DNA from: Halichondria panicea
Lineage: Eukaryota; Porifera; Demospongiae; Suberitida; Halichondriidae
Direction: 5' to 3'
Length of the DNA stretch: 64,000 nucleotides
Assembly: GCF_963675165.1 (NCBI RefSeq)
Contig: NC_087387.1
Location: forward strand, 937,001-1,001,000
How positions within the stretch are numbered: position 1 is the first letter of the stretch; each line of letters starts with the position of its first letter. The position numbers were made by a program, and so were the translations under genes. The notes under the pieces are model-generated. The model saw nothing but the letters and a program-made list of their open reading frames with translations, was not told the DNA's origin and ran no database searches. Of the stretch, positions 3,634 to 58,984 are shown piece by piece.

Positions 3634-5814
3634 CTAAAAGATAACAACAGATCCGTCACTGCACACATACACAAAACCATCACTGTCCACAGCTACTCCA
3701 AAAGGAGAAGTGATATGACCATTACCAAATGATGTGACAAACTGACCATCTTTAGTGAACACTGACACACGCTTGTTATTATACTCAGCAACATAAACAA
3801 AACCAGCGACACACACACCACGAGGGTCAGACAGATCTCCTTGTCCACTTCCTTCCTTTCTAATCGAGCGAATAAACCGACCATTCATAGTGAGCACTTG
3901 AACACGATGATTATAACTGTCAGATACATACACAATTTGACTGTCCACTGCAACATCCTCTGGTCGGTTAAAATGCTCATTACCAGTTCCCTTTGAACCA
4001 ATCTGCTTGACTGGCTCCAGCTCTGTCGTCAACACTTGGACTCTATGATTGTCTTGATCGCACACAAATACTTGATCACCAGCGACTGCTATCCCTCGAG
4101 GCCAGTTGAGTTCCTTTGGACCACTTCCCTTCGTCCCAAACCTCTTCAGTAGATCTCCTCTTTTGTTGAACTTGTACACACAGTTATTGCTACTATCACA
4201 GACATAGGTGTTGTCCTCCTTGTCTACTGCCACGCCAGAGATACCGCCAAACCCATGCTTTGATTTGCTGATGCTTCGAATTTGTTTTCCTTTCTTGTCA
4301 AACACCAAAACATCACCACCAAAGTCAGTTACAATCAGTTCTTCTGACGAATTGGATGCCATATATCGAGGTTTGTTGATTCCTCTCATCACCCTCACAG
4401 GTTTGTCCAGCTTGGTGGGGGGTATTTTGATGAATACAGAGAAGGGGCTTCCTGGGATAGGCTGCTCGTTCACTGAGATCAGGAGGTGGTGTCGACCACG
4501 TACCCTAGGGGTGTACTCAACGCTGTACACTCCACCCCTCACAGGCACTGCTTGCAATTCTTGAGATGTGTCATCAGATAGCGTTTTCAGTAGAACTTGT
4601 GGCTTGCCTCTTTTTGAACCGCAATAAAATATCAGTTTTGAACATTTGTCAACTTCAGCTGTTTTGATACCGTCTCCTTTCACAATCGGCTTTCCTTCAT
4701 GGACAATAACATTGTTCTCACACAACTTCTTGAGATTCTCACAAACAAACACTTCAATTCCAAAATCATCTTTCTCCACTGGATCAGGATTGGCTGCTTC
4801 CTTCCCTTGCTTCACCACCTTGGCATCGATTCGACTCACCACCTGCTCTTGCATCGTAATCAGTTCTTCATCACTTGCATTCTCCAGTGTACGCTCTACA
4901 AAGTCAATCAAACTCTGAGCAGTGCCCAGGGACAGGTCCAGACCCTTCTCTTGAACCGTCAGCTTCTCCATCTTTGAATCAGCCAAAGCAGAAGATTCTC
5001 GTAAAACACGGACCTTGCATCGATCGAGAATATCGTGTAGCTCCTGGAACTTGGCATTCACTTGTCTCTCTGTCAGTTCTTTCTGGGCCTGAATCTTCTG
5101 TTTAGTTCCTTTCACTTGATTCACAGCGGTGCTCAGATCAGGCAGTAGGTTCTTGAGTGGGGAGAGGTGCTCCGTCAGCTTTTTGCGAGTTGCGGGGGCG
5201 GCTTTCTTTACAAATTCGTAATTGTGTCCAGCGTGTTCAATAACGATACAGTCTCGACAGATGAGCTTGTTGCAATCGAAACAGAAAATCTTTTTTAGTT
5301 CTTCGTGATCATCACATTTTGGGGGTGGTAGGTTTTCGAATGTTAGTTCTTTCACTCCGCCCTGTTTCAGCTCGTCCAGAGTGGAGACGATATGTGTAGC
5401 AAACACGGCTTTCATACGTTGATGAGATTCTACACATTTTTCACAGATAAAATTGACACACTGTCGGCAGAATGCAGTGGCCTTTCCCCCAGAGCACACT
5501 TCACAGGTGGTCTCCAACTTGCCGTGAGCTTTCTCCATCCTCGAGTGGAGTGCTTTCATCCGGTTGATGAAGAATGCAGTGGGCAGTCTGTCTGGGTTGT
5601 TGTCAGGCAACAGAGTGGGCTCACGACAGTCGGGGCAAGGGAACGGCTGGTTGGGTTGGTAGCGACTGGAGAGTGTGAGGATGCATTGCTTGCAGTAGTA
5701 GTGACAACAAGGGAGCAGCTTTGGCTCCTGGTAGCGGTCATGACAGATGCCACAGGTCACCTCTTGCTCGAGATCAGCAACAACTGGATCAACTGGATTA
5801 GGCCCTTCGGCCAT
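3634..5814 (-). CDS. TRIM-NHL E3 ubiquitin ligase-like protein, copy 1
   Basis: An uninterrupted 726-residue single-exon frame. RING finger: C21, C24, C36, H38, C41, C44, C60 and C63. B-box 1 starts at C104 and B-box 2 lies around 162-200 (CDDHEELKKIFCFDC). A coiled coil follows to about 330, then a filamin-type Ig domain to about 470 (GVYSVEYTPRVRGRHHLLIS), then six NHL blades to the end. This is the TRIM2/TRIM3/TRIM71 architecture. By family knowledge the RING recruits an E2, the coiled coil dimerises and the NHL propeller binds RNA or protein. It carries a VDP insertion in its N terminus, an ESHQRMK-type B-box 1 and a KPIVKGDG-type filamin first half. A probable 5'UTR intron spans 5828-5978 with a GTAAGT donor. 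The complete coiled-coil gene lies directly downstream. The substrate is unknown. Confidence 0.93.
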   Translation of the reverse strand: MAEGPNPVDPVVADLEQEVTCGICHDRYQEPKLLPCCHYYCKQCILTLSSRYQPNQPFPCPDCREPTLLPDNNPDRLPTAFFINRMKALHSRMEKAHGKLETTCEVCSGGKATAFCRQCVNFICEKCVESHQRMKAVFATHIVSTLDELKQGGVKELTFENLPPPKCDDHEELKKIFCFDCNKLICRDCIVIEHAGHNYEFVKKAAPATRKKLTEHLSPLKNLLPDLSTAVNQVKGTKQKIQAQKELTERQVNAKFQELHDILDRCKVRVLRESSALADSKMEKLTVQEKGLDLSLGTAQSLIDFVERTLENASDEELITMQEQVVSRIDAKVVKQGKEAANPDPVEKDDFGIEVFVCENLKKLCENNVIVHEGKPIVKGDGIKTAEVDKCSKLIFYCGSKRGKPQVLLKTLSDDTSQELQAVPVRGGVYSVEYTPRVRGRHHLLISVNEQPIPGSPFSVFIKIPPTKLDKPVRVMRGINKPRYMASNSSEELIVTDFGGDVLVFDKKGKQIRSISKSKHGFGGISGVAVDKEDNTYVCDSSNNCVYKFNKRGDLLKRFGTKGSGPKELNWPRGIAVAGDQVFVCDQDNHRVQVLTTELEPVKQIGSKGTGNEHFNRPEDVAVDSQIVYVSDSYNHRVQVLTMNGRFIRSIRKEGSGQGDLSDPRGVCVAGFVYVAEYNNKRVSVFTKDGQFVTSFGNGHITSPFGVAVDSDGFVYVCSDGSVVIF

Positions 5815-8225: not shown

Positions 8226-10427
8226 CTAAAAGATAATAACAGATCCGTCACTGCACACATACACAAAACCATCATTGTCCACAGCTACTCCATAAAGATG
8301 GGAAGTGATATGACCATTACCAAATGATGTGACAAACTGACCGTCTTTAGTAAACACTGACACACGATTGTTATCAAAATCAGCAACATAAACAAAGCTA
8401 GTAACACACACACCATGAGGGCGAGACAGATCTCCTTGTCCACTTCCCTTCTTTCCAATCGAGCGAATAAACCGACCACCCATAGTGAGCACTTGCACAC
8501 GATGATTACTATAGTCAGTGACATACACCATTTGTTCATTGTCCACTGCAATATCCTCTGGTCCGTTAAAATGTCCATTACCAGTTCCCTTTGAACCAAT
8601 CTGCTTGACCAGCCGCTCTGTCGTTAACACTTGGACTCTGTGGTTGTTCTGATCGCACACAAACACTTGATCACCAGCGACTGCTATCCCTCGAGGCCAG
8701 TTGAGTTCCTTTGGACCAATTCCCCTTGTCCCAAACCTCTTCAGTAGATCTTCTCTTTTGTTGAACTTGTACACACAACTTTCGCCGTTGTCACAGACAT
8801 ATATGTTGTCCTCCTTGTCTACTGCCACACCAGAGATATTGCTAAACCCATGCTTTGATTTGCTGATGCTTCGAATTCGTTCTCCTTTCTTGTCCAACAC
8901 CAAAACATCACTGTCTCGATCAGTTACAATCAGTTCTTCTGATGAGTTGAATGCCATATACCGAGGGTTGTTGATTCCTCTTATCACTCTTACTGGTTTG
9001 TCCAGCTTCGTAGGGGGTATTTTGACGAACACAGAGAAGGGGCTTCCTGGGATGGGCTGGTTGTCCACTGAGATCAGGAGGTGGTGTCGACCACGTACCC
9101 TAGGGGTGTACTCAACACTGTACACTCCATCCCTCACAGGCACTGCTTGCAATTGCTGAGATGATTCTTCAACTAGCGATTTTAGAGCCACTTGTATTGT
9201 ATGATGCTTAAATTGTGTATTACATTCCACAAGAATCGAAAAATTGTTAAGTGTACTAATTTCAGCAGTTCTAGCTCCATTTCCTTCGACAGTGAACTTT
9301 GTTGGATCCACTTTTCCTTCATACACAAAAACATTGTTCTCACACAACTTCTTGAGATCCTCAGAAACAAACCCTTCGACTTCAAAATCATCTTTCTCTA
9401 CTGGATCAAGATTGGCTGCTTCCTTCCCTCGCTTCACCACCTCGGCATCGATTCGACTCACCACCTGCGATTGCATTGTAATCAGTTCTTCATCACTTGC
9501 ATTCTCCAGTGTACGCTCTACAAAGTCAATCAAACTCTGAGCAGTGCCCAGGGACAGGTCCAGACCCTTCTCTTGAACCGTCAGCTTCTCCATCTTTGAA
9601 TCAGCTAAAACAGAAGATTTTCGTAAAACACGGACCTTGCATTGATCGAGAATATCGTGTAGCTCCTGGAACTTGGCATTCACTTGTCTCTCTGTCAGCT
9701 CTTTCTGGGCCTGTATCTTCTGTTTAGTTCCTTTCACTTGATTCACAGCGGTGCTCAGATCAGGCAGTAGGTTCTTGAGTGGGGAGAGGTGCTCTGTCAG
9801 CTTTTTGCGAGTTGCGGGGGCGGCTTTCTTTACAAATTCGTAATTGTGTCCAGCATGTTCAATAACGATACAGTCTCGACAGATGAGCTTGTTGCAATCG
9901 AAACAGAAAATCTTTTTTAGTTCCTCGTGATCTTCACATTTTGGGGGTGGTGGGTTTTCGAATGTTAGTTCTTTCACTCCGCCCTGTTTGAGCTGTTCCA
10001 GAGTAGAGACGATATGTGTAGCAAACACTTTCATACGTTGATGAGGTCTTACACAATCCTCACAGATGAAATTGACACACTGTCGGCAGAATGCAGTGGC
10101 TTTTCCCCCAGAGCACATTTCACAAGTAGTCTCCAACTTGCCGTGGGCTTTCTCCATTCTCGAGTGGAGTGCTTTCATCCGGTTGATGAAGAACGCAGTG
10201 GTCAGTCTGTCTGGGTTGTTGTCTGGCAATAGAGTGGGCTCACGACAGTCGGGGCAGGGGAACGGCTGGTTGGGTCGGTAGCGACTGGAGAGTGTGAGGA
10301 TGCATTGTTTGCAGTAGTAGTGACAACAAGGGAGCAGCTTTGGCTCCTGGTAGCGGTCATGACAGATACCACAGGTCACCTCTTGCTCGAGATCAGCAAC
10401 AACTGGATCAGGTCCTTCGGCCATCAT
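8226..10427 (-). CDS. TRIM-NHL E3 ubiquitin ligase-like protein, copy 2
   Basis: A full-length 733-residue single-exon frame with RING, B-box 1 (CVRPHQRMKVFATH), B-box 2, coiled coil, filamin domain and six NHL blades. The first Met is doubled (MMAEGPDP); the second Met matches the start of the other copies. Its filamin first half (VDPTKFTVEGNGARTAEIST, then a unique stretch) is the most divergent version in the array. Blade residues also differ, for example RDSD in blade 1 and a two-residue-shorter loop after TTER in blade 4. A probable 5'UTR intron covers 10441-10616 (donor GTAAGT, acceptor CCCCAG). Unlike copies 4-9 it has no coiled-coil or MCM6 fragment behind it, but the plus-strand fragment 7202-8129. 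It appears functional. Confidence 0.93.
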   Translation of the reverse strand: MMAEGPDPVVADLEQEVTCGICHDRYQEPKLLPCCHYYCKQCILTLSSRYRPNQPFPCPDCREPTLLPDNNPDRLTTAFFINRMKALHSRMEKAHGKLETTCEMCSGGKATAFCRQCVNFICEDCVRPHQRMKVFATHIVSTLEQLKQGGVKELTFENPPPPKCEDHEELKKIFCFDCNKLICRDCIVIEHAGHNYEFVKKAAPATRKKLTEHLSPLKNLLPDLSTAVNQVKGTKQKIQAQKELTERQVNAKFQELHDILDQCKVRVLRKSSVLADSKMEKLTVQEKGLDLSLGTAQSLIDFVERTLENASDEELITMQSQVVSRIDAEVVKRGKEAANLDPVEKDDFEVEGFVSEDLKKLCENNVFVYEGKVDPTKFTVEGNGARTAEISTLNNFSILVECNTQFKHHTIQVALKSLVEESSQQLQAVPVRDGVYSVEYTPRVRGRHHLLISVDNQPIPGSPFSVFVKIPPTKLDKPVRVIRGINNPRYMAFNSSEELIVTDRDSDVLVLDKKGERIRSISKSKHGFSNISGVAVDKEDNIYVCDNGESCVYKFNKREDLLKRFGTRGIGPKELNWPRGIAVAGDQVFVCDQNNHRVQVLTTERLVKQIGSKGTGNGHFNGPEDIAVDNEQMVYVTDYSNHRVQVLTMGGRFIRSIGKKGSGQGDLSRPHGVCVTSFVYVADFDNNRVSVFTKDGQFVTSFGNGHITSHLYGVAVDNDGFVYVCSDGSVIIF

Positions 10428-12355: not shown

Positions 12356-14461
12356 CTACTCCATAAGAGAAGTGATATGACCATTACCAAATGATGTGAC
12401 AAACTGACCATCTTTAGTGAACACTGACACGCGCTTGTTAGTATACTCAGCAACATAAAGAAAACTACTGACACACACACCACGAGGGCCAGAAAGATCT
12501 CCTTGTCCATTTCCTTTCTTTCCAATCGAGTGAATAAACCGATCATCCATAGTGAGCACTTGAACACGATGATTACCATAGTCAGTGACATACACCATTT
12601 GTACATTGTCCACCGCAACATCCTCTGGTAGGTCATTACCAGTTTCCATTAAATCAATCTGCTTGACTGGCCCCAGCTCTGTCGTCAACACTTGGACTCC
12701 GTGATTCCCTCGATTGCACACAAACACTTCATCACCAGCGACTGCTATCCCTTGAGGGTAGTAGAGTTTTTTTAGAATACTTTCCCTTGTCCCAAACCAT
12801 TTTAGCAGATATCCTCTTTTGTACACGCAGTGTTTGTTGCTGCCAGAGACATAGATCTTGTCTTCCTTGTCTACTGCCACACGAGAGATACTGCCAAACC
12901 AATGTATTGATTTGCTGATGCTTTGAATTTGTTTTCCTTTCTTGTCAAACATCAAAATATCACCGTTCCAGTCAGTTACAATCAGTTCTTCTGATGAGTT
13001 GAATGCCATATACCGAGGGTTGTTGATTCCTCTTATCACCCTCACAGGTTTGTCCAGCTTGGTGGGGGGTATTTTGACGAACACAGAGAAGGGGCTTCCT
13101 GAAATAGGCTGGTCGTCCACTGAGATCAGGAGGTGGTATCGACCACGTACCCTAGGGGTGTACTCAACACTGTACACTCCACCCCTCACAGGCACTGCTT
13201 GTAGCTGTTGAGATGATTGATCAGCTAGCAATTTTAAAGTTGCTTTAGCTTTTGAAAATTGTCGTGGCTGGTGTATATTGATTGAAAAGCAAGCAGGTTT
13301 ATCGATTTCAGCATTTTTAACTACATCTCCTTCCACAGTGCACTTCGTTGGATCCACTGTACCGTCATACACAATAACGTTGTTTTTACACAACTCCTTG
13401 AGACCCTTATAAACAAACACCTCAACTCCAAAATCATCTTTCTCCACTGGATCAGAATTGGCTGCTTCCTTCACCACCTCAGCATCGATTCGACTCACCA
13501 CCTGCTCTTGCATCGTAATCAGTTCTTCATCACTTGCATTCTCCAGTGTACGCTCTACAAAGTCAATCAAACTCTGAGCAGTGCCTAGGGACAGGTCCAG
13601 ATCTTTCTCTTGAACTGTCAGCTTCTCCATCTTTGAATCAGCTAAAGCAGAAGATTCTCGTAAAACACGGACTTTGCATCGATCGAGAATATCGTGTAGC
13701 TCCTGGAACTTGGCATTCACTTGTCTCTCTGTCAGTTCTTTCTGGGCCTGTATATTCTGTTTAGTTCCTTTCACTTGATTCACAGCGGTGCTCAGATGAG
13801 GCAGTAGGTTCTTGAGTGGGGAGAGGTGCTCCGTCAGCTTTTTGCGAGTTTCGGGGGCGGCTTTCTTAACTAACTCTGACTTGTGGTCACAATGATCGAA
13901 TACAACACAGTCTCGACAGATGAGCTTGTTGCAATCGAAACAAAAAATCTTCTTTGGCTCCTCATGATCCTCGCATTTTGGGGGTAGTGGGCTTTCGAAT
14001 GTTAGATCTTTCACTCCGCCCTGTTTGAGCTGTTCCAGAGTAGAGACGATATGTGTAGCAAACACTTTCATACGCTGATGAGATCTTACACAATCCTCAC
14101 AAATGAACTGGACACACTGTCGGCAGAATGCAGTGGCCTTTTCCCCAGGGCACATTTCACAGGTGGCCTCTAACTTGCCGTGGGCTTTCTCCATCCTCGA
14201 GTGGAGTGCTTTCATCCGGTTGATGAAGAACGCAGTGGTCAGTCTGTCTGGGTTGTTGTCTGGCAATAGAGTGGGCTCACGACAGTCGGGGCAGGGGAAC
14301 GGCTGGTTGGGTGGGTAGCGACTGGAGAGTGTGAGGATGCATTGCTTGCAGTAGTAGTGACAACGAGGGAGCAGCTTTAGCTCCTGGATGCGGTCATGAC
14401 AGATGCCACAGGTCACCTCTTGCTCGAGATCAGCAACAACTGGATCAGGTTTTTCGGCCAT
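12356..14461 (-). CDS. TRIM-NHL protein, copy 3, degenerating
   Basis: A 701-residue single-exon frame of the same architecture but with several lesions. In the RING the third zinc ligand Cys of the LPCCHYYC motif is Arg (LPRCHYYC). Residues are missing in blade 2 (CVYKRGYLLK lacks FNK) and blade 4 (TGNDLPEDVAV). A one-base deletion in the last blade converts the usual GHITSP-GVAV stretch into GHITSLME followed by a stop, removing about 25 residues. B-box 2 also differs (CVVFDHCDHKSELV). The filamin first half is the VDPTKCTVEGD type shared with copies 6 and 8. The probable 5'UTR intron is 14484-14585. It may be a pseudogene in the making. The Tudor fragment lies upstream at 14761-16572. Confidence 0.85.
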   Translation of the reverse strand: MAEKPDPVVADLEQEVTCGICHDRIQELKLLPRCHYYCKQCILTLSSRYPPNQPFPCPDCREPTLLPDNNPDRLTTAFFINRMKALHSRMEKAHGKLEATCEMCPGEKATAFCRQCVQFICEDCVRSHQRMKVFATHIVSTLEQLKQGGVKDLTFESPLPPKCEDHEEPKKIFCFDCNKLICRDCVVFDHCDHKSELVKKAAPETRKKLTEHLSPLKNLLPHLSTAVNQVKGTKQNIQAQKELTERQVNAKFQELHDILDRCKVRVLRESSALADSKMEKLTVQEKDLDLSLGTAQSLIDFVERTLENASDEELITMQEQVVSRIDAEVVKEAANSDPVEKDDFGVEVFVYKGLKELCKNNVIVYDGTVDPTKCTVEGDVVKNAEIDKPACFSINIHQPRQFSKAKATLKLLADQSSQQLQAVPVRGGVYSVEYTPRVRGRYHLLISVDDQPISGSPFSVFVKIPPTKLDKPVRVIRGINNPRYMAFNSSEELIVTDWNGDILMFDKKGKQIQSISKSIHWFGSISRVAVDKEDKIYVSGSNKHCVYKRGYLLKWFGTRESILKKLYYPQGIAVAGDEVFVCNRGNHGVQVLTTELGPVKQIDLMETGNDLPEDVAVDNVQMVYVTDYGNHRVQVLTMDDRFIHSIGKKGNGQGDLSGPRGVCVSSFLYVAEYTNKRVSVFTKDGQFVTSFGNGHITSLME

Positions 14462-14483
14462 CGTTAGAAATTGTTTCTCAGAT

Positions 14484-14760
14484 CTGGAGAATGCAATTGT
14501 GTAGTATGTTGAATATTGTATAATTAGCTATATACATGTACTATAGTATAGTCTATACCTCTGCAGCTACTGTATAAAGTCTTACCTACAATCAGAAAAA
14601 GCTTTCCAGGGTTAAAGCATATGGTCAAAGTAAGCAATGAACTGAAGTAGCAGTAAGCTCTAAGTTATGTAAAATTAATGTTTTCATAGCGTTTCACCAG
14701 CGCTATAATATTATAGTGTTTTAATGAGATTCATTGCATTTTCTAGTACAAATTGCGATT
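14484..14760 (-). promoter_or_regulatory. Upstream region of TRIM copy 3
   Basis: A probable 5'UTR intron at 14484-14585 has a GTAAGA donor. The sequence matches the upstream side of the TRIM copy 10 fragment (60220-60530), not the ATACGCCC-type upstream block of most copies, so copies 3 and 10 share a separate promoter lineage. Confidence 0.4.
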
Positions 14761-17390: not shown

Positions 17391-19574
17391 CTAAAAGATA
17401 ACAACAGATCCGTCACTGCACGCATATACAAAACCATCAGTGTCCACAGTTACTCCAAAAAGATTAGTGATATGACCATTACCAAATGATGTGACAAACT
17501 GACAGTCTTTAGTGAACACTGACACACAACCGTTATAATAATCAACAATATAAAACCAGTGACAAACAAAACCAGTGACACACACACCACGAGGGGTAGA
17601 CAGATCTCCTTGTCCACTTCTTTTCTTTCCAATCGAGCGAATAAACCGACCATCCATAGTGAGCACTTGAACACGATGATTATAACAGTCAGTGACATAC
17701 ATCATTTGTTTATTGTCCACTGCAACATCCTCTGGGCAGTTAAAATGCTCATTACCAGTTCCCTCTGAACCAATCTGCTTGACTGGCTCCAGCTCTGTAG
17801 TCAACACTTGGACTCTGTGATTATTCTGATCGCACACAAACACTTGATCACCAGCGACTGCTATCCCTCGAGGGAAGTTGAGTTCTTTTGGACCACGTCC
17901 CTTCGTCCCAAACCTCTTCAGCAGATCTCCTCTTTTGTTGAACTTGTACACACAGTGTTTGCTACTATCACAGACATAGATGTTGTCCTCCTTGTCTACT
18001 GCCACACCAGAGATACCGACAAACCCATGCTTTGATTTGCTGATGCTTCGAATTTGTTTTCCTTTCTTGTCAAACACCAAAACATCACCGCTATAGTTAG
18101 TTACAATCAGTTCATCTGATGAGTTGAATGCCATATACCGAGGTTCGTTGATTCTTCTTATCACTCTCACTGGTTTGTCCAGCTTGGTGGGGGGTATTTT
18201 GATGAACACAGAGAAGGGGCTTCCTGGGATGGGCTGGTCGTCCACTGAGATCAGGAGGTGGTGTCGACCACGTACCCTAGGGGTGTACTCAACACTGTAC
18301 ACTTCACCCCTCACAGGCACTGCTTGCAGTTGTTGGGTCGATTGATCAACTAGCGATTTCAGTACTGCTTGTGGTTTGCCTTGTTTTGAACTGATATAGA
18401 CATTCAGCCTTGCATATTTGTCAACTTCAGCTGTTTTGATGCCGTCTCCTTTCACAATCGGCTTTCCTTCATGTACAATAATGTTGTTCTCGCACAACTT
18501 CTTGAGATCCTCACAAACAAACACTTTGACTCCAAAATCATCTTTCTCCACTGGATCAGGATTGGCTGCTTCCTTCCCTCGCTTCACCACCTCGACATCG
18601 ATTCGACTCACCACCTGCTCTTGCATCGTAATCAGTTCTTCATCACTTGCATTCTCCAGTGTACACTCTACAAAGTCAATCAAACTCTGAGCAGTGCCCA
18701 GGGACAGGTCCAGACCCTTCTCTTGAACCGTCAGCTTCTCCATCCTTGAATCAGCCAAAGCAGAAGATTCTCGTAAAACACGGACTTTGCATCGATCGAG
18801 AATATCGTGTAGCTCCTGGAACTTGGCATTCACTTGTCTCTCTGTCAGTTCTTTCTGGGACTGGATATTCTGTTTAGTTCCTTTCACTTGATTCACAGCG
18901 GTGCTCAGATCAGGCAGTAGGTTCTTGAGTGGGGAGAGGTGCTCCGTCAGCTTTTTGCGAGTTGCGGGGGCGGCTTTCTTTACAAATTCGTAATTGTGTC
19001 CAGCGTGTTCAATAACGATACAGTCTCGACAGATGAGCTTGTTGCAATCAAAACAGAAAATCTTTTTCAGTTCTTCGTGATCTTCACATTTTGGGGGTGG
19101 TGGGCTTTCGAATGTTAGTTCTTTCACTCCGCCCTGTTTGAGCTCGTCCAGAGTGGAGATGGCATGTCCGGCAAATACTCTCAATCGTTTATGAGACTTC
19201 ACACAATCTTCACAGATGAAATTGACACATTGTCGGCAGAATGCAGTGGCCTTTCCCCCAGAGCACATTTCACAAGTGGCCTCCAATTTTCCATGGGCTT
19301 TCTCCATCCTCGAGTGGAGTGCTTTCATCCGGTTGATGAAGAACGCAGTGGGCAGTCTGTCAGGGTTGTTGTTTGGCAATAGAGTGGGCTCACGACAGTC
19401 GGGGCAGGGGAACGGCTGGTTGGGTCGGTAGCGACTGGAGAGTGTGAGGATGCATTGCTTGCAGTAGTAGTGACAACAAGGGAGCAGCTTTGGCTCCTGG
19501 TAGCGGTCATGACAGATGCCACAGGTCACCTCTTGCTTGAGATCAGCAACAACTGGATCAGGTCCTTCGGCCAT
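17391..19574 (-). CDS. TRIM-NHL E3 ubiquitin ligase-like protein, copy 4
   Basis: An open 727-residue single-exon frame with RING C18/C21/C33/H35/C38/C41/C57/C60, B-box 1 of the CVKSHKRLRVFAGH type, B-box 2, coiled coil, filamin domain (KPIVKGDG type, SSKQGKPQAVLKSL) and six NHL blades. Blade 5 has a short internal duplication (TGFVCHWFYIVDYYNG), and blade residues around it differ from other copies (INEP, NYSGD, FNCPED). A probable poly(A) signal (AATAAA on the minus strand, plus 17351-17356) lies about 35 bases after the stop. A probable 5'UTR intron covers 19588-19788. Its 3' 0.86 kb is repeated almost exactly at 63130-64000. Confidence 0.93.
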   Translation of the reverse strand: MAEGPDPVVADLKQEVTCGICHDRYQEPKLLPCCHYYCKQCILTLSSRYRPNQPFPCPDCREPTLLPNNNPDRLPTAFFINRMKALHSRMEKAHGKLEATCEMCSGGKATAFCRQCVNFICEDCVKSHKRLRVFAGHAISTLDELKQGGVKELTFESPPPPKCEDHEELKKIFCFDCNKLICRDCIVIEHAGHNYEFVKKAAPATRKKLTEHLSPLKNLLPDLSTAVNQVKGTKQNIQSQKELTERQVNAKFQELHDILDRCKVRVLRESSALADSRMEKLTVQEKGLDLSLGTAQSLIDFVECTLENASDEELITMQEQVVSRIDVEVVKRGKEAANPDPVEKDDFGVKVFVCEDLKKLCENNIIVHEGKPIVKGDGIKTAEVDKYARLNVYISSKQGKPQAVLKSLVDQSTQQLQAVPVRGEVYSVEYTPRVRGRHHLLISVDDQPIPGSPFSVFIKIPPTKLDKPVRVIRRINEPRYMAFNSSDELIVTNYSGDVLVFDKKGKQIRSISKSKHGFVGISGVAVDKEDNIYVCDSSKHCVYKFNKRGDLLKRFGTKGRGPKELNFPRGIAVAGDQVFVCDQNNHRVQVLTTELEPVKQIGSEGTGNEHFNCPEDVAVDNKQMMYVTDCYNHRVQVLTMDGRFIRSIGKKRSGQGDLSTPRGVCVTGFVCHWFYIVDYYNGCVSVFTKDCQFVTSFGNGHITNLFGVTVDTDGFVYACSDGSVVIF

Positions 19575-38565: not shown

Positions 38566-40725
38566 CTAAAATATAACAACAGATTCATGACTGCACACAT
38601 AAACAAAACCATCACTGTCCACAGCTACTCCACAAGGAAAAATGATATGACCATTACCAAATGATGTGACAAACTGACCGTCTTTAGTGAACACTGACAC
38701 ACGCTTGTTATCATAATCAGCAACATAAACAAAACCAGTGACACACACACCAAAAGGGCGAGACAGATCTCCTGGTCCATTTCCTTTCTTTCCAATCGAG
38801 CGAATAAACCGACCATCCATAGTGAGCACTTGAACACGATGATTATTACAGTCAGTGACATACATCATTTGTTCATTGTCCACTGCAACATCCTCTGGTT
38901 GGTTAAAACATCCATTACCAGTTCCGTATGAACCAATCTGCTTGACTGGCTCCAGCTCTGTTGTCAACACTTGGACTCTCTGATTGCATCGATCGCACAC
39001 AAACACTTGATCACCAGCGACTGCTATCCCTCGAGGACAGCTGAGTTCCTTTGGACCACTTCCATTCGTCCCAAACCTCTTTAGCAGATCTCCTCTTTTG
39101 TTGAACTTGTACACACAGTCTTCGCTGCTATCACAGACATAGATGTTGTCCTCCTTGTCTACTGCCACACACCAGATAGAGCCAAACCCATGCTTTGATT
39201 TGCTGATGCTTCGAATTTGTTTTCCTTTCTTGCCAAACACCAAAACATCACCGTTCCAGTCAGTTACAATCAGTTCTTCTGATGAGTTGAATGCCATATA
39301 CATAGGGTCTTTGATTCCTGTTATCACCCTCACTGGTTTGTCCAGCTTGGTGGGGGGTATTTTGATAAACACAGAGAAGGGGCTTCCTGGGATGGGCTGG
39401 TCGTCCACTGAGATCAGGAGATGGTGTCGACCACGTACCCTAGGGGTGTACTCAACACTGTACACTCCACCCCTCACAGGCACTGCTTGCAATTGTTGGG
39501 TCGATTGATCAACTAGCGATTTCAGTACTGCTTGTGGTTTGCCTTGTTTTGAACTGATATAGACATTCAGATTTGCACATTTGTCAACTTCAGCCATCTT
39601 CACACCATCACCCCTCACAGAAGGATAAACTACAACATTGTTCTCACACAACTTCTTGAGATCCTCACAAACAAACAGTTCAACTCCAAAATCATCTTTC
39701 TCCACTGGATCAGGATTGGCTGCTTCCTTCCCTCGCTTCACCACCTTGGCATCGATTCGACTCACCACCTGCTCTTGCATCGTAATCAGTTCTTCATCAC
39801 TTGCATTCTCCAGCGTACGCTCTACAAAGTCAATCAAACTCTGAGCAGTGTCCAGGGACAGGCCCAGACCCTTCTCTTGAATCGTCAGCTTCTCCATTTT
39901 TGAATCAGCCAAAGCAGAAGATTCTCGTAAAACACGAACCTTGCATCGATCGAGAATATCGTGTAGCTCCTGGAACTTGGCATTCACTTGTCTCTCTGTC
40001 AGTTCTTTCTGGGCCTGGATCTTTTGTTTAGTTCCTTTCACTTGATTCACAGCGGTGCTCAGATCAGGCAGTAAGTTCTTGAGTGGGGAGAGGTGCTCCG
40101 TCAGCTTTTTGCGAGTTGCGGGGGCAGCTTTCTTTACAAATTCGTAATTGTGTCCAGCATGTTCAATAACGATACAGTCTCGACAGATGAGCTTGTTGCA
40201 ATCGAAACAGAAAATCTTTTTTGGCTCTTCGTGATCTTCACATTTTGGGGGTGGTGGGCTTTCGAATGTTAGTTCTTTCACTCCGCCCTGTTTGAGCTCG
40301 TCCAGAGTGGAGATAGCATGTCCGGAAAATACTTTCATTTTATGAGACTTCACACAATCGTCACAGATAAAACTGACACACTGTCGGCAGAATGCAGTGA
40401 CCTTTCCCCCAGAGCACATTTCGCAGGTGGTCTCTAACTTGCCGTGGGCTTTCTCCATCCTCGAGTGGAGTGCTTTCATCCGGTTGATGAAGAACGCAGT
40501 AGTCAGTCTGTCAGGGTTGTTGTCTGGCAATAGAGTGGGCTCACGACAGTCGGGGCAGGGGAACGGCTGGTTGGGTCGGTAGCGACTGGAGAGTGTGAGG
40601 ATGCATTGCTTGCAGTAGTAGTGACAACAAGGGAGCAGCTTTGGCTCCTGGTAGCGGTCATGACAGATGCCACAGGTCACTTCTTGCTCGAGATCAGCAA
40701 CAACTGGATCAGGTCCTTCTGCCAT
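38566..40725 (-). CDS. TRIM-NHL E3 ubiquitin ligase-like protein, copy 7
   Basis: An open 719-residue single-exon frame. RING and B-box 2 are intact. B-box 1 is a short variant (CVKSHKMKVFSGH). The filamin first half is the VVYPSVRGDGVKMAEVDK type shared only with copy 9. Variable blade residues include IKDPMYM, DWNGD, GSIWCVAV, DRCNQR, FNQPED and HIIFPCG. The probable 5'UTR intron is 40739-40917. Coiled-coil copy 5 and MCM6 copy C follow downstream. The gene appears functional. Confidence 0.93.
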   Translation of the reverse strand: MAEGPDPVVADLEQEVTCGICHDRYQEPKLLPCCHYYCKQCILTLSSRYRPNQPFPCPDCREPTLLPDNNPDRLTTAFFINRMKALHSRMEKAHGKLETTCEMCSGGKVTAFCRQCVSFICDDCVKSHKMKVFSGHAISTLDELKQGGVKELTFESPPPPKCEDHEEPKKIFCFDCNKLICRDCIVIEHAGHNYEFVKKAAPATRKKLTEHLSPLKNLLPDLSTAVNQVKGTKQKIQAQKELTERQVNAKFQELHDILDRCKVRVLRESSALADSKMEKLTIQEKGLGLSLDTAQSLIDFVERTLENASDEELITMQEQVVSRIDAKVVKRGKEAANPDPVEKDDFGVELFVCEDLKKLCENNVVVYPSVRGDGVKMAEVDKCANLNVYISSKQGKPQAVLKSLVDQSTQQLQAVPVRGGVYSVEYTPRVRGRHHLLISVDDQPIPGSPFSVFIKIPPTKLDKPVRVITGIKDPMYMAFNSSEELIVTDWNGDVLVFGKKGKQIRSISKSKHGFGSIWCVAVDKEDNIYVCDSSEDCVYKFNKRGDLLKRFGTNGSGPKELSCPRGIAVAGDQVFVCDRCNQRVQVLTTELEPVKQIGSYGTGNGCFNQPEDVAVDNEQMMYVTDCNNHRVQVLTMDGRFIRSIGKKGNGPGDLSRPFGVCVTGFVYVADYDNKRVSVFTKDGQFVTSFGNGHIIFPCGVAVDSDGFVYVCSHESVVIF

Positions 40726-46392: not shown

Positions 46393-46789
46393 GTGTAATT
46401 AACAGCTCAAGATAGCATACTTGCTGTACGACTGTACGTATAGCACACTTGAAACTGCCATGGCTACAATTAAAATCTTCTGCGTCGACAGGGGACATTT
46501 AATTGAGTTTTGCTCACACACACACACACACACAATCGACTTTATTAGACTTTACTAGGACATTATAATTATTAATGATGTGAAGCACTCACTGTTGGCT
46601 GTGTGAACTTGAACTGCTGCTCAACATCAGAGATGACCGTCTGACACTCGAGACAGAGGAACGTCCCATTGGTCAGCTCGGGATGGACAGGGTGCGTCCG
46701 TACCACTTGCCCACTGATGCGTAGCAGAGTACCCACTTTGGACGTTGAGAGTTCACGAACCCTGTGGGTGAATAAGTTGACACATTATC

Positions 46790-47283
46790 ACTCAAAAAAT
46801 ACTTCGGCCAAATACTGCAGAGAGTTGTCTTGCGTTGCTATGACTTCATCACTTTGCTGCCATGTGGTGTCTTGTGATACAACGGTTTCTATCGTAATAT
46901 TTTCAGGGATGTCTTGCATTTCTCTGGCTTCATCATCTGGGGGGCCGGGGAGGGGTTGCTCTTGTACTTCAAATGTAGCTTGCTGTGTAATGAACGTGGC
47001 TTCTGCTGCTAATGCTTGAAACATCATCACCTGTTTGTTGAGCTCACAAACTAGGGACTGGGCCGTGTAGAGGTCAAATTGTCCATCTTCAGAGCTTGGT
47101 TGGTCATCAGTGGGTACCGGTACTTCATCTTGTTCATTGAGATTGTCACTTTTAGTGAGGTTATTGAGATCTGATTGATAGTGGAGTCTTGCAAGCAGTG
47201 GCTCTGCTCTCTCTGTAGTTGTATAATGGGTCCATGCAACTGATGCAGCTTCAGATACAGAGTGTGCTAGGTACTTGTCTATT
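46790..47283 (-). pseudogene. Coiled-coil gene exon-1 fragment, copy 6, start codon lost
   Basis: A copy of exon 1 with the initiating ATG changed to ATA at 47281-47283 (KIDKYLAHS). It is open to LQYLAE and then joins the MCM6 copy D intron (VFFE, stop). A longer frame beginning in the TRIM copy 8 3' end remains open across it. Confidence 0.82.
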
Positions 47284-47457
47284 TTCACTTGTAATAAGAT
47301 GGTAAAGATCATCATAACACAATCACAAACGATCTTTCCCAAAATAGGCAGCAGGCAGGTAAAGATCATCAGTAGAACTAACTGCTTCTCAATCAAAAGT
47401 AAATTATTACATACACATAAAACACAGATTGCTACTGCCCACACACACAAATAATAA

Positions 47458-49662
47458 CTAAAATATAACAACAGATCCGTGACTGCGCACATAAACAAAA
47501 CCATCACTGTCCACAGCTACTCCATAAACTCTATAAAGATTAGTGATATGAGCATTACCAAATGATGTGACAAACTGACCGTCTTTAGTGAACACTGACA
47601 CACGCTTGTTACCATCCTCAAAAACATAAACAAAACCAGTGACACACACACCACAAGGGGAAGACAGTTCTCCTTGTCCATTTCCTTTCTTTCCAATCGA
47701 GCGAATAAACCGACCATCCATAGTGAGCACTTGAACACGATGATTACTATAGTCAGTGACATACACCATTTGTTTATTGTCCACTGCAACATCCTCTGGT
47801 CCGTTAAAATGCTCATTACCAGTTCCGTATGAACCAATCTGCTTGACTTGCTCCAGCTCTGTTGTCAACACTTGGACTCTGTGATTTTGATCGTCACACA
47901 CAAACACTTGATCACCAGCGACTGCTATCCCTCGAGGGCAGTTGAGTTCCTTTGGACCACTTCCCTTTGTCCCAAACCTCTTTAGCAGATCTCCTCTTTT
48001 GTTGATTTTGTACACACAGTGTTTGGTGCAGTCACAGACATAGATGTTGTCCTCCTTGTCTACTGCCACACCATAGATACTGCCAAACCCATGCTTTGAT
48101 TGGCTGATGCTTCGAATTTGTTTTCCTTTCTTGTCAAACACCAAAATATCGCTATAGTCAGTTAATATCAGTTCTTCAGATGAGTTGAATACCATATACC
48201 GAGGGTTCTTGATTCCTCTTATCACCCTCACTGGTTTGTCTAGCTTGGTGGGGGGTATTTTGATGAACACAGAGAAGGGGCTTCCTGGGATGGGCTGGTC
48301 GTCCACTGAGATCAGGAGGTGGTGTCGACCACGTACCTTAGGGGTGTACTCAATACTGTACACTCCACCCCTCACAGGCACTGCTTGCAATTGTTGGGAT
48401 GTATCATCAACTAGCGATCTTAGAGTCGATTTAGTTTTTGAAGAAAATTGTTGTGGCTGGTGTGTATTGATTGAAAAGCAAGCAGGTTTATCGATTTCAG
48501 CATTTTTAGCTCCATCTCCTTCCACAGTGCACTTTGTTGGATCAACTTTAGTACCATTATACACAAAAACGTTGTTCTCACACAACTTCTTGAGATCCTC
48601 ACAAACAAACACTTGGACTCCAAAATCATCTTTCTCCACTGGATCAGGATTGGCTGCTTCCTTCTCTCGCTTCACCACCTCGGCATCGATTCGACTCACC
48701 ACCTGCTCTTGCATCGTAATCAGTTCTTCATCACTTGCATTCTTCAGTGTACGCTCTACAAAGTCAATCAAACTCTGAGCAGTGCCCAGAGACAGGTCCA
48801 GACCCTTCTCTTGAACCGTCAGTTTCTCCATCTTTGAATCAGCCAAAGCAGAAGATTCTCGTAAAACATGGACCTTGCATCGATCGAGAATATCGTGTAG
48901 CTCCTGGAACTTGGCATTCACTTGTCTCTCTGTCAGTTCTTTCTGGGCCTGGATCTTCTGTTTAGTTCCTTTCACTTGATTCACAGCGGTGCTCAGATCA
49001 GGCAGTAGGTTCTTGAGTGGGGAGAGGTGCTCCGTCAGCTTTTTGCGAGTTGCTGGGGAGGCTTTCTTTACAAATTCGTAATTGTGTCCAGCGTGTTCAA
49101 TAACGATACAGTCTCGACAGATGAGCTTGTTGCAATCGAAGCAAAAAATCTTTTTTAGTTCCTCGTGATCCTCACATTTTGGGGGTGGTGGGCTTTCGAA
49201 TGTTAGTTCTTTCACTCCGCCCTGTTTGAGGTCGTCCAGAGTGGAGATGGCATGTCCGGCAAATACTTTCAATCGTTTATGACACTTCACACAATCTTCA
49301 CAGATGAAATTGACACACTGTCGGCAGAATGCAGTGGCCTTTCCCCCAGAGCACATTTCACAGGTGGTCTCCAACTTGCCATGGGCTTTCTCCATCCTCG
49401 AGTGGAGTGCTTTCATCCGGTTGATGAAGAACGCAGTGGGCAGTCTGTCTGGGTTGTTGTCTGGCAATAGAGTGGGCTCACGACAGTCGGGGCAGGGGAA
49501 CGGCTGGTTGGGTCGGTAGCGACTGGAGAGTGTGAGGATGCATTGCTTGCAGTAGTAGTGACAACAAGGGAGCAGCTTTGGCTCCTGGTAGCGGTCATGA
49601 CAGATGCCACAGGTCACTTCTTGCTCGAGATCAGCAACAACTGGATCAGGTCCTTCGGCCAT
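47458..49662 (-). CDS. TRIM-NHL E3 ubiquitin ligase-like protein, copy 8
   Basis: A full 734-residue single-exon frame with intact RING. B-box 1 is CVKCHKRLKVFAGH, and the filamin first half is the VDPTKCTVEGDGAKNAEIDK type, a combination not seen in other copies. Blade 1 is one residue short (YSDILVF), and the last blade carries a short insertion (HITNLYRVYGVAV). Other variable residues are DCTKH, DDQNHR and FNGPED. The probable 5'UTR intron covers 49676-49828. Coiled-coil copy 6 and MCM6 copy D follow. It is probably functional. Confidence 0.93.
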   Translation of the reverse strand: MAEGPDPVVADLEQEVTCGICHDRYQEPKLLPCCHYYCKQCILTLSSRYRPNQPFPCPDCREPTLLPDNNPDRLPTAFFINRMKALHSRMEKAHGKLETTCEMCSGGKATAFCRQCVNFICEDCVKCHKRLKVFAGHAISTLDDLKQGGVKELTFESPPPPKCEDHEELKKIFCFDCNKLICRDCIVIEHAGHNYEFVKKASPATRKKLTEHLSPLKNLLPDLSTAVNQVKGTKQKIQAQKELTERQVNAKFQELHDILDRCKVHVLRESSALADSKMEKLTVQEKGLDLSLGTAQSLIDFVERTLKNASDEELITMQEQVVSRIDAEVVKREKEAANPDPVEKDDFGVQVFVCEDLKKLCENNVFVYNGTKVDPTKCTVEGDGAKNAEIDKPACFSINTHQPQQFSSKTKSTLRSLVDDTSQQLQAVPVRGGVYSIEYTPKVRGRHHLLISVDDQPIPGSPFSVFIKIPPTKLDKPVRVIRGIKNPRYMVFNSSEELILTDYSDILVFDKKGKQIRSISQSKHGFGSIYGVAVDKEDNIYVCDCTKHCVYKINKRGDLLKRFGTKGSGPKELNCPRGIAVAGDQVFVCDDQNHRVQVLTTELEQVKQIGSYGTGNEHFNGPEDVAVDNKQMVYVTDYSNHRVQVLTMDGRFIRSIGKKGNGQGELSSPCGVCVTGFVYVFEDGNKRVSVFTKDGQFVTSFGNAHITNLYRVYGVAVDSDGFVYVRSHGSVVIF

Positions 49663-50299: not shown

Positions 50300-54964
<4,665 letters not shown>

Positions 54965-55235
54965 CTGTGTGTACGAAGTAGGTTATAATTATGAATGAGT
55001 AACACCAGGAGCGGCACTCCTGTTAACAAGTTGAATGTGCAGTAAATGGTGGAGTCTAATGAACTTACACATGCTCACTCTACTTCAACATGTGCTACAC
55101 TATGTTCTAAGACCGCAGACATCTCATCACACATGTGTTTACACGTAGTACATGAATACACTGTGTATAATAATATCACTATAGATGCATACACTAACTA
55201 AATTAAGACATAAAATGGTAGCTTAACTGATGCAC

Positions 55236-55988: not shown

Positions 55989-56648
55989 CTGCAGTACTTG
56001 CAATAACATTGTTGACAATTGGTCTCCTCGTGTCGGACAATAATAGTGTATCCATTGTAGGCTCTTTGGGTGAAGCTTTGTCTATAGTGGTGTCCATTGG
56101 ATGTACTCTACTGGTGACCTCTGTGAACCTTGTCTTGGCAACACAAGCACACGGCAATTTTCCAACCATATTATATTCGGCCAAATACTGCAGAGAGTTG
56201 TCTTGCGTTGCTATGACTTTATCACTTTGCTGTCGTGTGGTGTTTTGTGATACAATAGTTTCTATCGTAATATTTTCAGGGAGACTTGCATTTCTCTGGC
56301 TTCATCCTCTGGGGGGAGGGGCTGCTGTTGTACCTCAAATGTAGCTTGCTGTGTAATGAACGTGGCTTCTGCTGCTAATGCTTGAAACATCATCACCTGG
56401 TTGTTGAGCTCACAAACTAGGGACTGGGCCGTGTAGAGGTCAAATTGTCCATCTTCAGAGCTTGGTTGGTCATCAGTGGGTACCGGTACTTCATCTTGTT
56501 CATTGAGATTGTCACTTTTAGTGAGATTGTCGAGATCTGATTGATAGTGGAGTCTCGCAAGCAGTGGCTCTGCTCTCTCTGTAGTTGTATAATGGGTCCA
56601 TGCAACTGATGCAGCTTCAGATACAGAGTGTGCTAGGCACTTGTCCAT
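55989..56648 (-). pseudogene. Coiled-coil gene exon-1 fragment, copy 7, joined to Tudor exon
   Basis: A copy of exon 1 from the ATG at 56646-56648 to the NNVIAST codons, joined to a Tudor exon as in copies 2 and 8. A small deletion near 56280 shifts the frame after MQVSLKI, so no long product results. Confidence 0.8.
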
Positions 56649-56821
56649 TTTCACTTGTAATAAGATGGTAAAGATCCTCATAACACAATCACAAAAGATC
56701 TTTCCCAAAATAGACAGCAGCAGGTAAAGATCGTCATTAGAACTAACTGCTTCTCAATCAAAAGTAAATTATTACATACACATAAAACACAGATTGCTAT
56801 TGCCCACACACACAAATATAA

Positions 56822-58984
56822 CTAAAATATAACAACAGATTCTTCACTGCGCACATAAACAAAACCATCACTGTCCACAGCTACTCCATAAGGATTAGTG
56901 ATATGACCATTACCAAATGATGTGACAAACTGACCGTCTTTAGTGAACACTAACACACGATTGTTTTCATAATCAGCAACATAAACAAAATCAGTGACAC
57001 ACACACCACGAGGGTCAGACAGATCTCCTTGTCCATTTCCTTTCTTTCCAATCGAGCGAATAAACCGACCATCCATAGTGAGCACTTGAACACGATGATT
57101 ATAATTGTCAGTGACATACACCATTTGTTCATTGTCCACTGTGACATCCTCTGGGTAGTTAAAATGCTCATTACCAGTTCCCCTTGAACCAATCTGCTTG
57201 ACTGGCTCCAGCTCTGTCGTCAACACTTGGACTCTGTGATTGTCTTGATCGCACACAAACACTTGATCACCAGCGACTGCTATCCCTCGAGGCCAGTTGA
57301 GTTCCTTTGGACCACTTCCCTTCGTCCCAAACCTCTTTAGCAGATCTCCTCTTTTGTTGAACTTGTACACACAGAGTTTGTGCCTGTCACAGACATAGAT
57401 GTTGTCCTCCTTGTCTACTGCCACACCAGCGGTATTGCTAAACCCATGCTTTGATTTGCTGATGCTTCGAATTTGTTTTCCTTTCTTGTCAAACACCAAA
57501 ACATCACCGTTCCAGTCAGTTACAATCAGTTCTTCTGATGAGTTGAATGCCATATACTGAGGGTTGTCGATTCCTCTTATCACCTTCACTGGTTTGTCCA
57601 GCTTGGTGGGGGGTATTTTTACGAACACAGAGAAGGGACTTCCTGGGATGGGCTGGTCGTCCACTGAGATCAGGAGGTGGTGTCGACCACGTACCCTAGG
57701 GGTGTACTCAATGCTGTACACTCCACCCCTCACAGGCACTGCTTGCAATTGTTGGGTCGATTGATCAACTAGCAATTTCAGTACTGCTTGTGGTTTGCCT
57801 TGTTTTGAACTGATATAGACATTCAGATTTGTACATTTGTCAACTTCAGCCATCTTCACACCATCACCACTCACAGAAGGATAAACTACAACATTGTTCT
57901 CACACAACTTCTTGAGATCCTCACAAACAAACACTTCGACTCCAAAATCATCTTTCTCCACTGGATCAGGATTGGCTGCTTCCTTCCCTCGCTTCACCAC
58001 CTCGGCATCGATTCGACTCACCACCTGCTCTTGCATCGTAATCAGCTCTTCATCACTTGCATTCTCCAGTGTACGCTCTACAAAGTCAATCAAACTCTGA
58101 GCAGTGCCCAGGGACAGGTCCAGACCCTTCTCTTGAACCGTCAGCTTCTCCATCTTTGAATCAGCCAAAGCAGAAGATTCTCGTAAAACACGGACCTTGC
58201 ATCGATCGAGAATATCGTGTAGCTCCTGGAACTTGGCATTCACTTGTCTCACTGTCAGTTCGTTCTGGGCCTGGATCTTCTGTTTAGTTCCTTTCACTTG
58301 ATTCACAGCGGTGCTCAGATCAGGCAGTAGGTTCTTGAGTGGGGAGAGGTGCTCCGTCAGCTTTTTGCGAGTTGCGGGGGAGGCTTTTTTGACAAATTCG
58401 TAATTGTGTCCAGCGTGTTCAATAACGATACAGTCTCGACAGATGAGCTTGTTGCAATCGAAACAAAAAATCTTTTTTAGCTCCTCATGATCTTCGCATT
58501 TTGGGGGTGGTGGGCTTTCGAATGTTAGTTCTTTCACTCCGCCCTGTTTGAGCTCGTCCAGAGTGGAGATGGCATGTCCGGCAAATACTCTCAATCGTTT
58601 ATGAGACTTCACACAATCTTCACAGATGAAATTGACACATTGTCGGCAGAATGCAGTGGCCTTTCCCCCAGAGCACATTTCACAGGTGGTCTCCAACTTG
58701 CCGTGGGCTTTCTCCATCCTCGAGTGGAGTGCTTTCATCCGGTTGATGAAGAACGCAGTGGTCAGTCTGTCAGGGTTGTTGTCTGGCAATAGAGTGGGCT
58801 CACGACAGTCGGGGCAGGGGAACGACTGGTTGGGTCGGTAGCGACTGGAGAGTGTGAGGATGCATTGCTTGCAGTAGTAGTGACAACAAGGGAGCAGCTT
58901 TGGCTCCTGGTAGCGGTCATGACAGATGCCACAGGTCACTTCTTGCTCGAGATCAGCAACAACTGGATCAGGTCCTTCAGCCAT
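56822..58984 (-). CDS. TRIM-NHL E3 ubiquitin ligase-like protein, copy 9
   Basis: An open 720-residue single-exon frame with intact RING, CVKSHKRLRVFAGH B-box 1, B-box 2, coiled coil, VVYPSVSGDGVKMAEVDK-type filamin first half (as in copy 7) and six NHL blades. Variable blade residues include IDNPQYM, DWNGD, SNTAGVAV, DRHKL, FNYPED, TDNYNH and ADYENN. A probable 5'UTR intron spans 58995-59141. Its upstream flank resembles that of TRIM copy 1, including a CT microsatellite at the same place. Coiled-coil copy 7, Tudor copy 3 and MCM6 copy E follow. It is probably functional. Confidence 0.93.
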   Translation of the reverse strand: MAEGPDPVVADLEQEVTCGICHDRYQEPKLLPCCHYYCKQCILTLSSRYRPNQSFPCPDCREPTLLPDNNPDRLTTAFFINRMKALHSRMEKAHGKLETTCEMCSGGKATAFCRQCVNFICEDCVKSHKRLRVFAGHAISTLDELKQGGVKELTFESPPPPKCEDHEELKKIFCFDCNKLICRDCIVIEHAGHNYEFVKKASPATRKKLTEHLSPLKNLLPDLSTAVNQVKGTKQKIQAQNELTVRQVNAKFQELHDILDRCKVRVLRESSALADSKMEKLTVQEKGLDLSLGTAQSLIDFVERTLENASDEELITMQEQVVSRIDAEVVKRGKEAANPDPVEKDDFGVEVFVCEDLKKLCENNVVVYPSVSGDGVKMAEVDKCTNLNVYISSKQGKPQAVLKLLVDQSTQQLQAVPVRGGVYSIEYTPRVRGRHHLLISVDDQPIPGSPFSVFVKIPPTKLDKPVKVIRGIDNPQYMAFNSSEELIVTDWNGDVLVFDKKGKQIRSISKSKHGFSNTAGVAVDKEDNIYVCDRHKLCVYKFNKRGDLLKRFGTKGSGPKELNWPRGIAVAGDQVFVCDQDNHRVQVLTTELEPVKQIGSRGTGNEHFNYPEDVTVDNEQMVYVTDNYNHRVQVLTMDGRFIRSIGKKGNGQGDLSDPRGVCVTDFVYVADYENNRVLVFTKDGQFVTSFGNGHITNPYGVAVDSDGFVYVRSEESVVIF

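Follow-up and report, generated by a model that had tools for sequence, protein, structure and literature searches.

The window analysed here is a stretch of 64,000 nucleotides from the sponge Halichondria panicea (genome 131.5 Mb in 39 contigs), positions 937,001-1,001,000 of contig NC_087387.1 (6,808,682 bases; here C11). It carries nine members of one gene family, all on the minus strand and each with one open frame of 701-734 amino acids (aa), in which a RING half that hardly varies is joined to an NHL propeller whose diversifying selection is concentrated at four residues per blade. The nine frames (W1-W9) lie where a preceding sequence-only reading had placed them, and its description of nine TRIM-NHL paralogues holds for eight intact genes; W3 is damaged. 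Positions below are those of the window, and residues and codons are numbered on W9.

3634..5814, minus strand: W1, intact TRIM-filamin-NHL gene, 726 aa, single open frame
8226..10427, minus strand: W2, intact, 733 aa; near-identical sisters elsewhere in the cluster (L044-L047)
12356..14461, minus strand: W3, damaged; last blade gone, RING ligand Cys33 replaced by Arg, one TAG
17391..19574, minus strand: W4, intact, 727 aa
23976..26138, minus strand: W5, intact, 720 aa
31518..33716, minus strand: W6, intact, 732 aa; RING, B-box, filamin and NHL by Pfam
38566..40725, minus strand: W7, intact, 719 aa
47458..49662, minus strand: W8, intact, 734 aa
56822..58984, minus strand: W9, intact, 720 aa; numbering reference
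58805..58933, minus strand: RING finger of W9, residues 18-60, near-constant among copies
57632..57874, minus strand: filamin repeat of W9, residues 371-451, few shared haplotypes, no positively selected sites
56825..57601, minus strand: NHL propeller of W9, residues 462-720, holding all 24 motif codons

Pfam scans were run on W6 and W9, to which the other copies align along their length. Both proteins gave a RING (zf-C3HC4), two zf-B_box stretches, a filamin domain and NHL, with RING and B-box over the cut-off; the RING and NHL of the sequence-only reading were thus recovered, together with a filamin domain and a second B-box that it had missed. The NHL match (PF01436) reached 1.3e-29 in W9 and 7.9e-31 in W6, and six motif units are present in the alignment. 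A putative coiled-coil region (residues 201-340) was assigned from its expected place, and W9 aligns with TIF1-beta and TRIM25 chains from the RING to about residue 315. The RING ligands C18, C21, C33, H35, C38, C41, C57 and C60 are all retained in 46 of 48 aligned sequences, the exceptions being W3 and L049, which was trimmed before the RING by the start-codon rule; the eight Cys/His positions of B-box 2 are retained in 48 of 48. The genes belong with the TRIM-NHL E3 ligases (subfamily C), and the intact RING suggests that they are active ligases.

The family is larger than the nine genes first counted. A search of the genome with the W9 protein gave at least 66 matches at E<=1e-10, every one on C11; because 62 of 335 candidates were scored, the gene counts are lower bounds. 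At least 47 of the 66 matches are full-length stop-free genes, and 41 of these 47 lie between C11 positions 860,235 and 1,295,722 (435 kb). Four further full-length matches bear one TAG, and the remaining matches are partial.

Variability and selection were analysed in 46 of the 47 full-length stop-free genes, with W3 and L049 excluded. The sequence-only reading had proposed that changes cluster at the same two places in each NHL blade, next to the conserved Pro and in the D-x-x-N-x-R loop. Its examples were reproduced exactly: the residue before Pro is W, W, Y, F, F, Y, C, C, W in blade 3, R, G, C, E, L, Q, G, Y in blade 4 of W1, W2 and W4-W9 (codons CGA, GGA, TGC, GAA, CTC, CAA, GGA, TAC) and D, R, G, T, G, R, R, S, D in blade 5. 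From the nine-copy alignment, after it had been viewed, we defined 24 motif sites, namely P-1, P+1, D+1 and D+2 in each of six blades (W9 codons 474, 476, 491, 492, 517, 519, 534, 535, 564, 566, 580, 581, 610, 612, 627, 628, 657, 659, 672, 673, 697, 699, 714 and 715). Across the 46 genes, 47 of 720 alignment columns reached an entropy of at least 1.5 bits; 29 of the 47 fell inside NHL, and 22 of those were motif sites, in agreement with the proposed clustering. Four of the other seven NHL columns (516, 537, 675 and 698) are no more than two residues from a motif site, and three (555, 557 and 601) lie in the strand or loop preceding Pro. The 24 residues together, here called the face, occur in 40 distinct versions among the 46 genes, with a median pairwise difference of 17 of 24 (range 0-23); members of the five-gene group W2/L044-L047 have 0 or 1 face differences.

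Mean column entropy was 0.07 bits in the RING, 0.30 in the B-box, 0.15 in the coiled-coil region, 0.57 in filamin and 0.48 in NHL. The B-box 1 region and filamin are variable too, which corrects the sequence-only reading, and the filamin mean exceeds that of NHL; in both regions, however, the variation takes the form of a few shared haplotypes, with hardly any positively selected sites (see below).

We then considered selection. For whole domains of the eight intact window copies, the ratio of nonsynonymous to synonymous rates (dN/dS) was 0.10 in the RING, 0.22 in the B-boxes, 0.33 in the coiled-coil region, 0.51 in filamin and 0.83 in NHL; it exceeded 1 in no domain, and the NHL signal was restricted to motif sites. 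Individual sites were evaluated in the 46 genes with a custom-coded FUBAR-type grid model, in which a site was called positive at P(dN>dS)>=0.9. Site-wise dN/dS, which the sequence-only reading had set beforehand as one of two checks on the recognition hypothesis, exceeded 1 at 22 of 24 motif sites, compared with 21 of 235 sites in the rest of NHL, 2 of 340 in residues 1-340 and 0 of 121 in filamin. Mean rates at motif sites were 2.5 (synonymous) and 12.1 (nonsynonymous). A recombination artefact was examined as the source of this signal and rejected: blade-wise trees left 20 of the 24 motif sites positive, along with 27 of the 235 remaining sites in NHL, and neutral simulations with such trees (n=4) gave 8, 24, 18 and 7 false positives of 259, so that only the motif sites clearly exceed noise.

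Counts between nearest relatives gave the same picture (20 of 23 disjoint pairs; three with more than 120 differing codons were omitted). At motif codons, 227 nonsynonymous and 6 synonymous differing codons were found among 478, and 113 involved more than one base. The corresponding counts were 180 nonsynonymous and 218 synonymous of 6796 codons in residues 1-340, 114 and 71 of 2417 in filamin, and 283 and 132 of 4687 in the rest of NHL. Diversification in this family is focused on the motif codons and is selective in nature.

Relaxed constraint would be a simpler account, in which the loops drift freely and gene conversion homogenises everything else. By homology the motif sites are indeed surface loops, and mosaicism among the copies is strong, affecting 45 of 46 genes and visible as a decay of the squared correlation between sites (r2). 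Drift, however, should not carry neutral sites beyond intergenic or silent divergence, and the motif codons go far beyond it. In the 15 pairs among W4-W9, 33-49% of motif-codon bases differ and 3.5-6.6% of bases in other NHL codons; intergenic divergence is 1.7-3.1% where both copies come from W4-W8 (ten pairs, 4.2-5.8 kb aligned) and 5.6-6.4% where one of them is W9 (five pairs, 0.5-1.5 kb aligned). The motif codons thus exceed intergenic divergence about 7- to 28-fold, and the excess consists of amino-acid-changing differences. On the nearest-pair counts and the intergenic comparison we reject relaxed constraint, which we regard as very improbable.

The mosaicism itself is well documented. 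At informative sites outside the motif, r2 was 0.38 for sites up to 30 bases apart and dropped to 0.10 for those separated by 200-800 bases, the share of site pairs showing all four combinations rose with distance from 26% to 83%, and in 45 of 46 genes no single paralogue was nearest across all nine regions. Together these observations show that segments have been exchanged among copies, which we read as gene conversion. Each blade keeps its own sequence, and it is apparently the corresponding blades of different paralogues that exchange segments; block duplication of whole stretches occurs besides.

Saturated codons isolated among near-identical neighbours could also be expected if a retroelement- or deaminase-like process hypermutated them. 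Mean base entropy in motif codons is 1.10 bits at the first position, 1.17 at the second and 0.70 at the third, but the ratio of the third position to the first two, 0.62, is what simulations of mutation plus selection produce (0.60, standard deviation (sd) 0.05; 36 of 60 at or below). Similarly, transversions outnumber transitions (253 vs 204 in 23 pairs), but the resulting transition/transversion ratio, 0.81, falls between simulated means of 0.76 (kappa 2.5) and 1.01 (kappa 4.0; sd 0.11). It is nearly 2 sd under the kappa-4 mean, the simulated ratio at kappa 6 was 1.36, and four-fold sites showed 182:107; the simulations were oversaturated, with 330-343 differing codons against 233 observed in 20 of the 23 pairs, which makes this a rough check. 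Silent differences, counted among gene pairs sharing the same residue, amounted at two-fold sites to 8.5% in the motif, 5.7% in the rest of NHL and 7.2% in residues 1-340, and the median fitted synonymous rate was 1.24 in the motif and 0.50 in the rest of NHL, a mild excess that may come from saturation. At four-fold sites, however, they were 5.5% in the motif and 5.6% in the rest of NHL, and recent duplicates have identical or near-identical faces. Since silent changes at motif codons are not clearly raised, selection rather than targeted mutation explains the pattern. With the reservations given, silent rates, codon-position entropy and mutation spectrum largely refute targeted mutagenesis, to which we give hardly any credence.

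It was of interest where the selected residues lie on the propeller. In a phmmer search, the solved NHL structures best matching W9 were Thin (6d69) and TRIM71 (6fpt), at E about 1e-56. The residues of zebrafish LIN-41 that contact RNA are listed in the portion of PMC5908797 available; they are on the upper face, which lies opposite filamin. Of the 14 contacts drawn from this text, 13 fall, by chain numbering, at P-1, P+1, D+1 or D+2 (P=2e-14), against a background of 26 such positions in 276, two of the 26 coming from a spurious extra Pro anchor; the exception, Cys563, is at P-2. The sequence-only reading had expected the variable residues on an exposed face. This was borne out by alignment to LIN-41 instead of a structure model, and by that homology the residues would occupy the upper, ligand-binding face of the sponge propeller.

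The same match invites the reading that different faces bind different RNAs, the genes being diversified either as regulators acting after transcription or as restriction factors directed at RNA of viruses or transposons. The best-matching structures include TRIM71/LIN-41, both LIN-41 and Brat bind RNA with this face, and the text available of PMC5908797 stresses rapid change of this RNA-binding surface. The charge of the faces speaks against it. LIN-41 is strongly basic at the 24 positions, with a net charge of +8, and the basic face of the TRIM71/LIN-41 RNA reader is absent here: net charge averages -0.2 (sd 1.9, range -4 to +3; 46 genes), and acidic residues make up 13.7% of the face. Overall composition is Y 13.5, S 12.0, R 10.4, N 9.7, G 9.6, E 7.1, D 6.6, C 6.4, Q 5.8, F 4.2, H 3.0, W 2.9 and K 2.5%. 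In its abundance of Tyr, Ser, Gly, Asn and Arg the face resembles the binding sites of antibodies and lamprey receptors. Because the sponge faces are uncharged and that of LIN-41 carries +8, protein or glycan ligands would be clearly favoured over RNA, and we consider RNA reading unlikely, though worth keeping in mind.

We next looked beyond the C11 cluster. A second TRIM-NHL family on chromosome C3, sampled as 16 stretches fetched by coordinates, has 19 columns of at least 2 bits, all within NHL. Here motif positions were located by a pattern search that recovered just four of the six Asp anchors; 13 of the 24 most variable columns were among the resulting 20 positions (P=2e-15), and mean entropy was 2.00 in the motif, 0.30 in the rest of NHL and 0.23 before NHL. 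Three groups of proteins from other contigs, some of which may be haplotypes of one another, behaved likewise. Motif sites made up 19 of the top 24 columns in group A (12 proteins, 66-70% identical to W9; P=1e-28), 14 of 24 in group C (23 proteins, 47-50% identical; P=3e-17) and 12 of 24 in group D (6 proteins, 56-62% identical; P=2e-13). The motif-site design thus seems to be general to such TRIM-NHL expansions, each with its own gene set; the C11 cluster itself is particular to this lineage, as had been proposed, but the pattern recurs outside it. Group B (contigs of 332,846 and 1,234,121 bp) was rejected as an independent set: of 10 proteins of the 332,846-bp contig that were compared, 9 proved identical, over the aligned stretch, to genes of this genome.

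Five proteins from the 1,234,121-bp ENA contig (P0012, P0016, P0020, P0023 and P0029) are 91-97% identical to C11 sequences outside the face. None has an exact face counterpart among the 48 sequences, the fewest differences ranging from 3 to 16. This contig is possibly the other haplotype or from another individual, in which case repertoires would differ within the species.

The closest analogue of the sponge repertoire is the HNWD/NWD family (het-d, het-e and het-r) of Podospora anserina, NLRs with WD40 propellers. According to the available sections of PMC1805685 and PMC2873952, codons 7 and 9 (d-a loop, linking strand d with strand a of the following repeat) and 25 and 27 (b-c turn) of each repeat are selected, the selected pairs lie on the propeller top, and the genes undergo concerted evolution with exchange between loci and act in fungal allorecognition. 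Like the sponge family, HNWD is a multigene family with a separate effector part and four selected codons per repeat, arranged as two pairs; the sponge genes likewise show two selected pairs per repeat, on the top by homology, and exchange between loci. The resemblance is one of working principle only, since HNWD genes are fungal and encode NACHT and WD40 rather than RING and NHL. HNWD repeats are also near-identical and shuffled, whereas each sponge blade keeps its own sequence. Neither NACHT or WD40 nor B30.2/PRY-SPRY, the C-terminal domain of finTRIMs, was among the Pfam matches listed (22 for W6, the best 25 of 27 for W9).

FinTRIMs, with 84 clustered genes in zebrafish and positive selection in C-terminal ligand-binding loops (PMC2657112, as far as available), resemble the sponge genes as a big clustered TRIM family with a selected C-terminal domain. 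They differ in carrying B30.2 instead of NHL and, in the same text, in having 16-21 selected sites, mostly in beta-sandwich loops and without a periodicity of four per blade; a few selected sites are near the RING as well. TRIM71 shares filamin and NHL with the sponge genes. TRIM-NHL proteins such as TRIM71/LIN-41, TRIM2/3, Brat, Mei-P26 and Thin are, as far as is known, encoded by few, conserved genes per animal. Coral tachylectin-2 is a lectin of propeller fold, not a ubiquitin ligase, and is not known to form a tandem cluster of this type. Its gene has been put forward as a candidate for immunity, being highly diverse in amino acids and under positive selection (PMC2880987, available portion). 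By their domains, the sponge genes are TRIM-NHL ligases and belong to neither the HNWD nor the finTRIM family; we regard the system as a form of diversified-propeller recognition. The open-access literature, as partially listed and with most subscription journals outside its scope, yielded nothing on TRIM-NHL expansion or propeller diversification in sponges, and TRIMs are not treated in the available text of an H. panicea immune-gene paper (PMC8242945).

The suggestion of a recognition repertoire with a constant E3 half is well supported by these data, which come from one reference haplotype. We favour, as fairly probable, a tandem family of intracellular E3 ligases that combines one constant output with a diversified binding surface in an immune or self/non-self role. 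The RING/B-box/coiled-coil half would provide the output and the upper face of the six-bladed NHL propeller the binding surface. Face diversity would arise by ordinary point mutation; diversifying selection on four residues in each blade would maintain it, and short-tract exchange (gene conversion) together with block duplication would redistribute it among the copies. The faces would bind varied ligands, mostly non-self proteins or glycans rather than RNA, and binding would trigger ubiquitination.

Several points weigh against this reading. Motif sites 534 and 566 failed the site test with one NHL tree, as did 534, 564, 580 and 581 with blade trees. Exchange among copies inflates site tests, so noise may account for the 21 NHL positives that are not motif sites. 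No face difference (0 of 21-24) was seen in four proteins of further short contigs (P0014, P0015, P0032 and P0042), which look like orthologues or alleles, so face turnover is not fast at every gene. Intracellular location is suggested by the N-terminal sequence, and the domains indicate a recognition module, not an immune role. The genes might serve allorecognition, gamete recognition or symbiont tolerance and not pathogen defence: HNWD, the closest analogue, controls allorecognition in the fungus, and the faces of P0012, P0016, P0020 and P0029 that lack a counterpart here would fit haplotype-specific repertoires. We judge such a role improbable as an alternative to pathogen defence.

To our knowledge, antibody-like constant/variable intracellular repertoires are scarce outside vertebrates, and non-vertebrate animals are thought to rely on expanded receptor families. 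A bolder proposal, which we put forward tentatively and with some doubt, is that sponges hold an anticipatory germline intracellular repertoire: tens of RING ligases per haplotype with 24-residue paratopes, a common ubiquitin output and sets that differ between haplotypes, an independently evolved, NHL-based animal counterpart of HNWD that arrived at the same four positions in each blade and serves both immunity and self/non-self recognition. A fungus has separately evolved this type of design using another kind of propeller. A single chromosome here reveals the variable part with its positions and selective regime as well as the putative constant output, and the genes are concrete candidate receptors for how sponges distinguish microbes and other individuals.

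Further observations concern the cluster around these genes. W3-type damaged genes, each with one TAG, occur at C11 positions 949296, 1038658, 1106359 and 1197289, and W2-like copies at 945229, 1034592, 1102294 and 1193187, each a few kb from a W3-type gene; the W3 type is apparently a dead gene spread passively by block duplication. Two blocks of ~4 kb at window positions 14173-18261 and 59909-64000, distant from each other, are 95.6% alike and are a block duplication inside the cluster. Upstream of W9, a minus-strand fragment at 59859-60413 with only a RING and the following linker is probably a remnant TRIM copy. Immediately upstream of the ATG, TTCCCCAG is conserved (by eye, six copies); its likeness to a splice acceptor raises the possibility of a 5' non-coding exon.

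In at least five TRIM copies the end is followed or overlapped by another repeated open frame, marked by MDKYLAHSVSEAASVAWTHYTTTERAEP, and exons of an MCM helicase gene, probably MCM6, are repeated between TRIM copies. No Pfam match at 0.1 was obtained for the MDKYLAHSVSEAASVAWTHYTTTERAEP frame scanned, 2299-3489.

2299-3573, 30998-31537, 38050-38565, 46788-47516 and 56262-56753, all minus strand: MDKYLAHSVSEAASVAWTHYTTTERAEP frames
20946-21317, 27953-28324, 35092-35463 and 42066-42437, minus strand: MCM6_C-like exons
22585-22935, 29556-29918, 43758-44138 and 52657-53007, minus strand: MCM P-loop exons
45449-45898 and 54565-55074, minus strand: MCM OB-like exons

One or two MCM exons of each kind were scanned with profiles and the others assigned by blastp; the P-loop exon matched Pfam at 7e-44, and the MCM6_C and OB matches were under their cut-offs. 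C11 contains 25 full matches to the P-loop exon, 2 of them with a stop, and the MCM gene or its 3' part has been co-amplified with the TRIM ligases.

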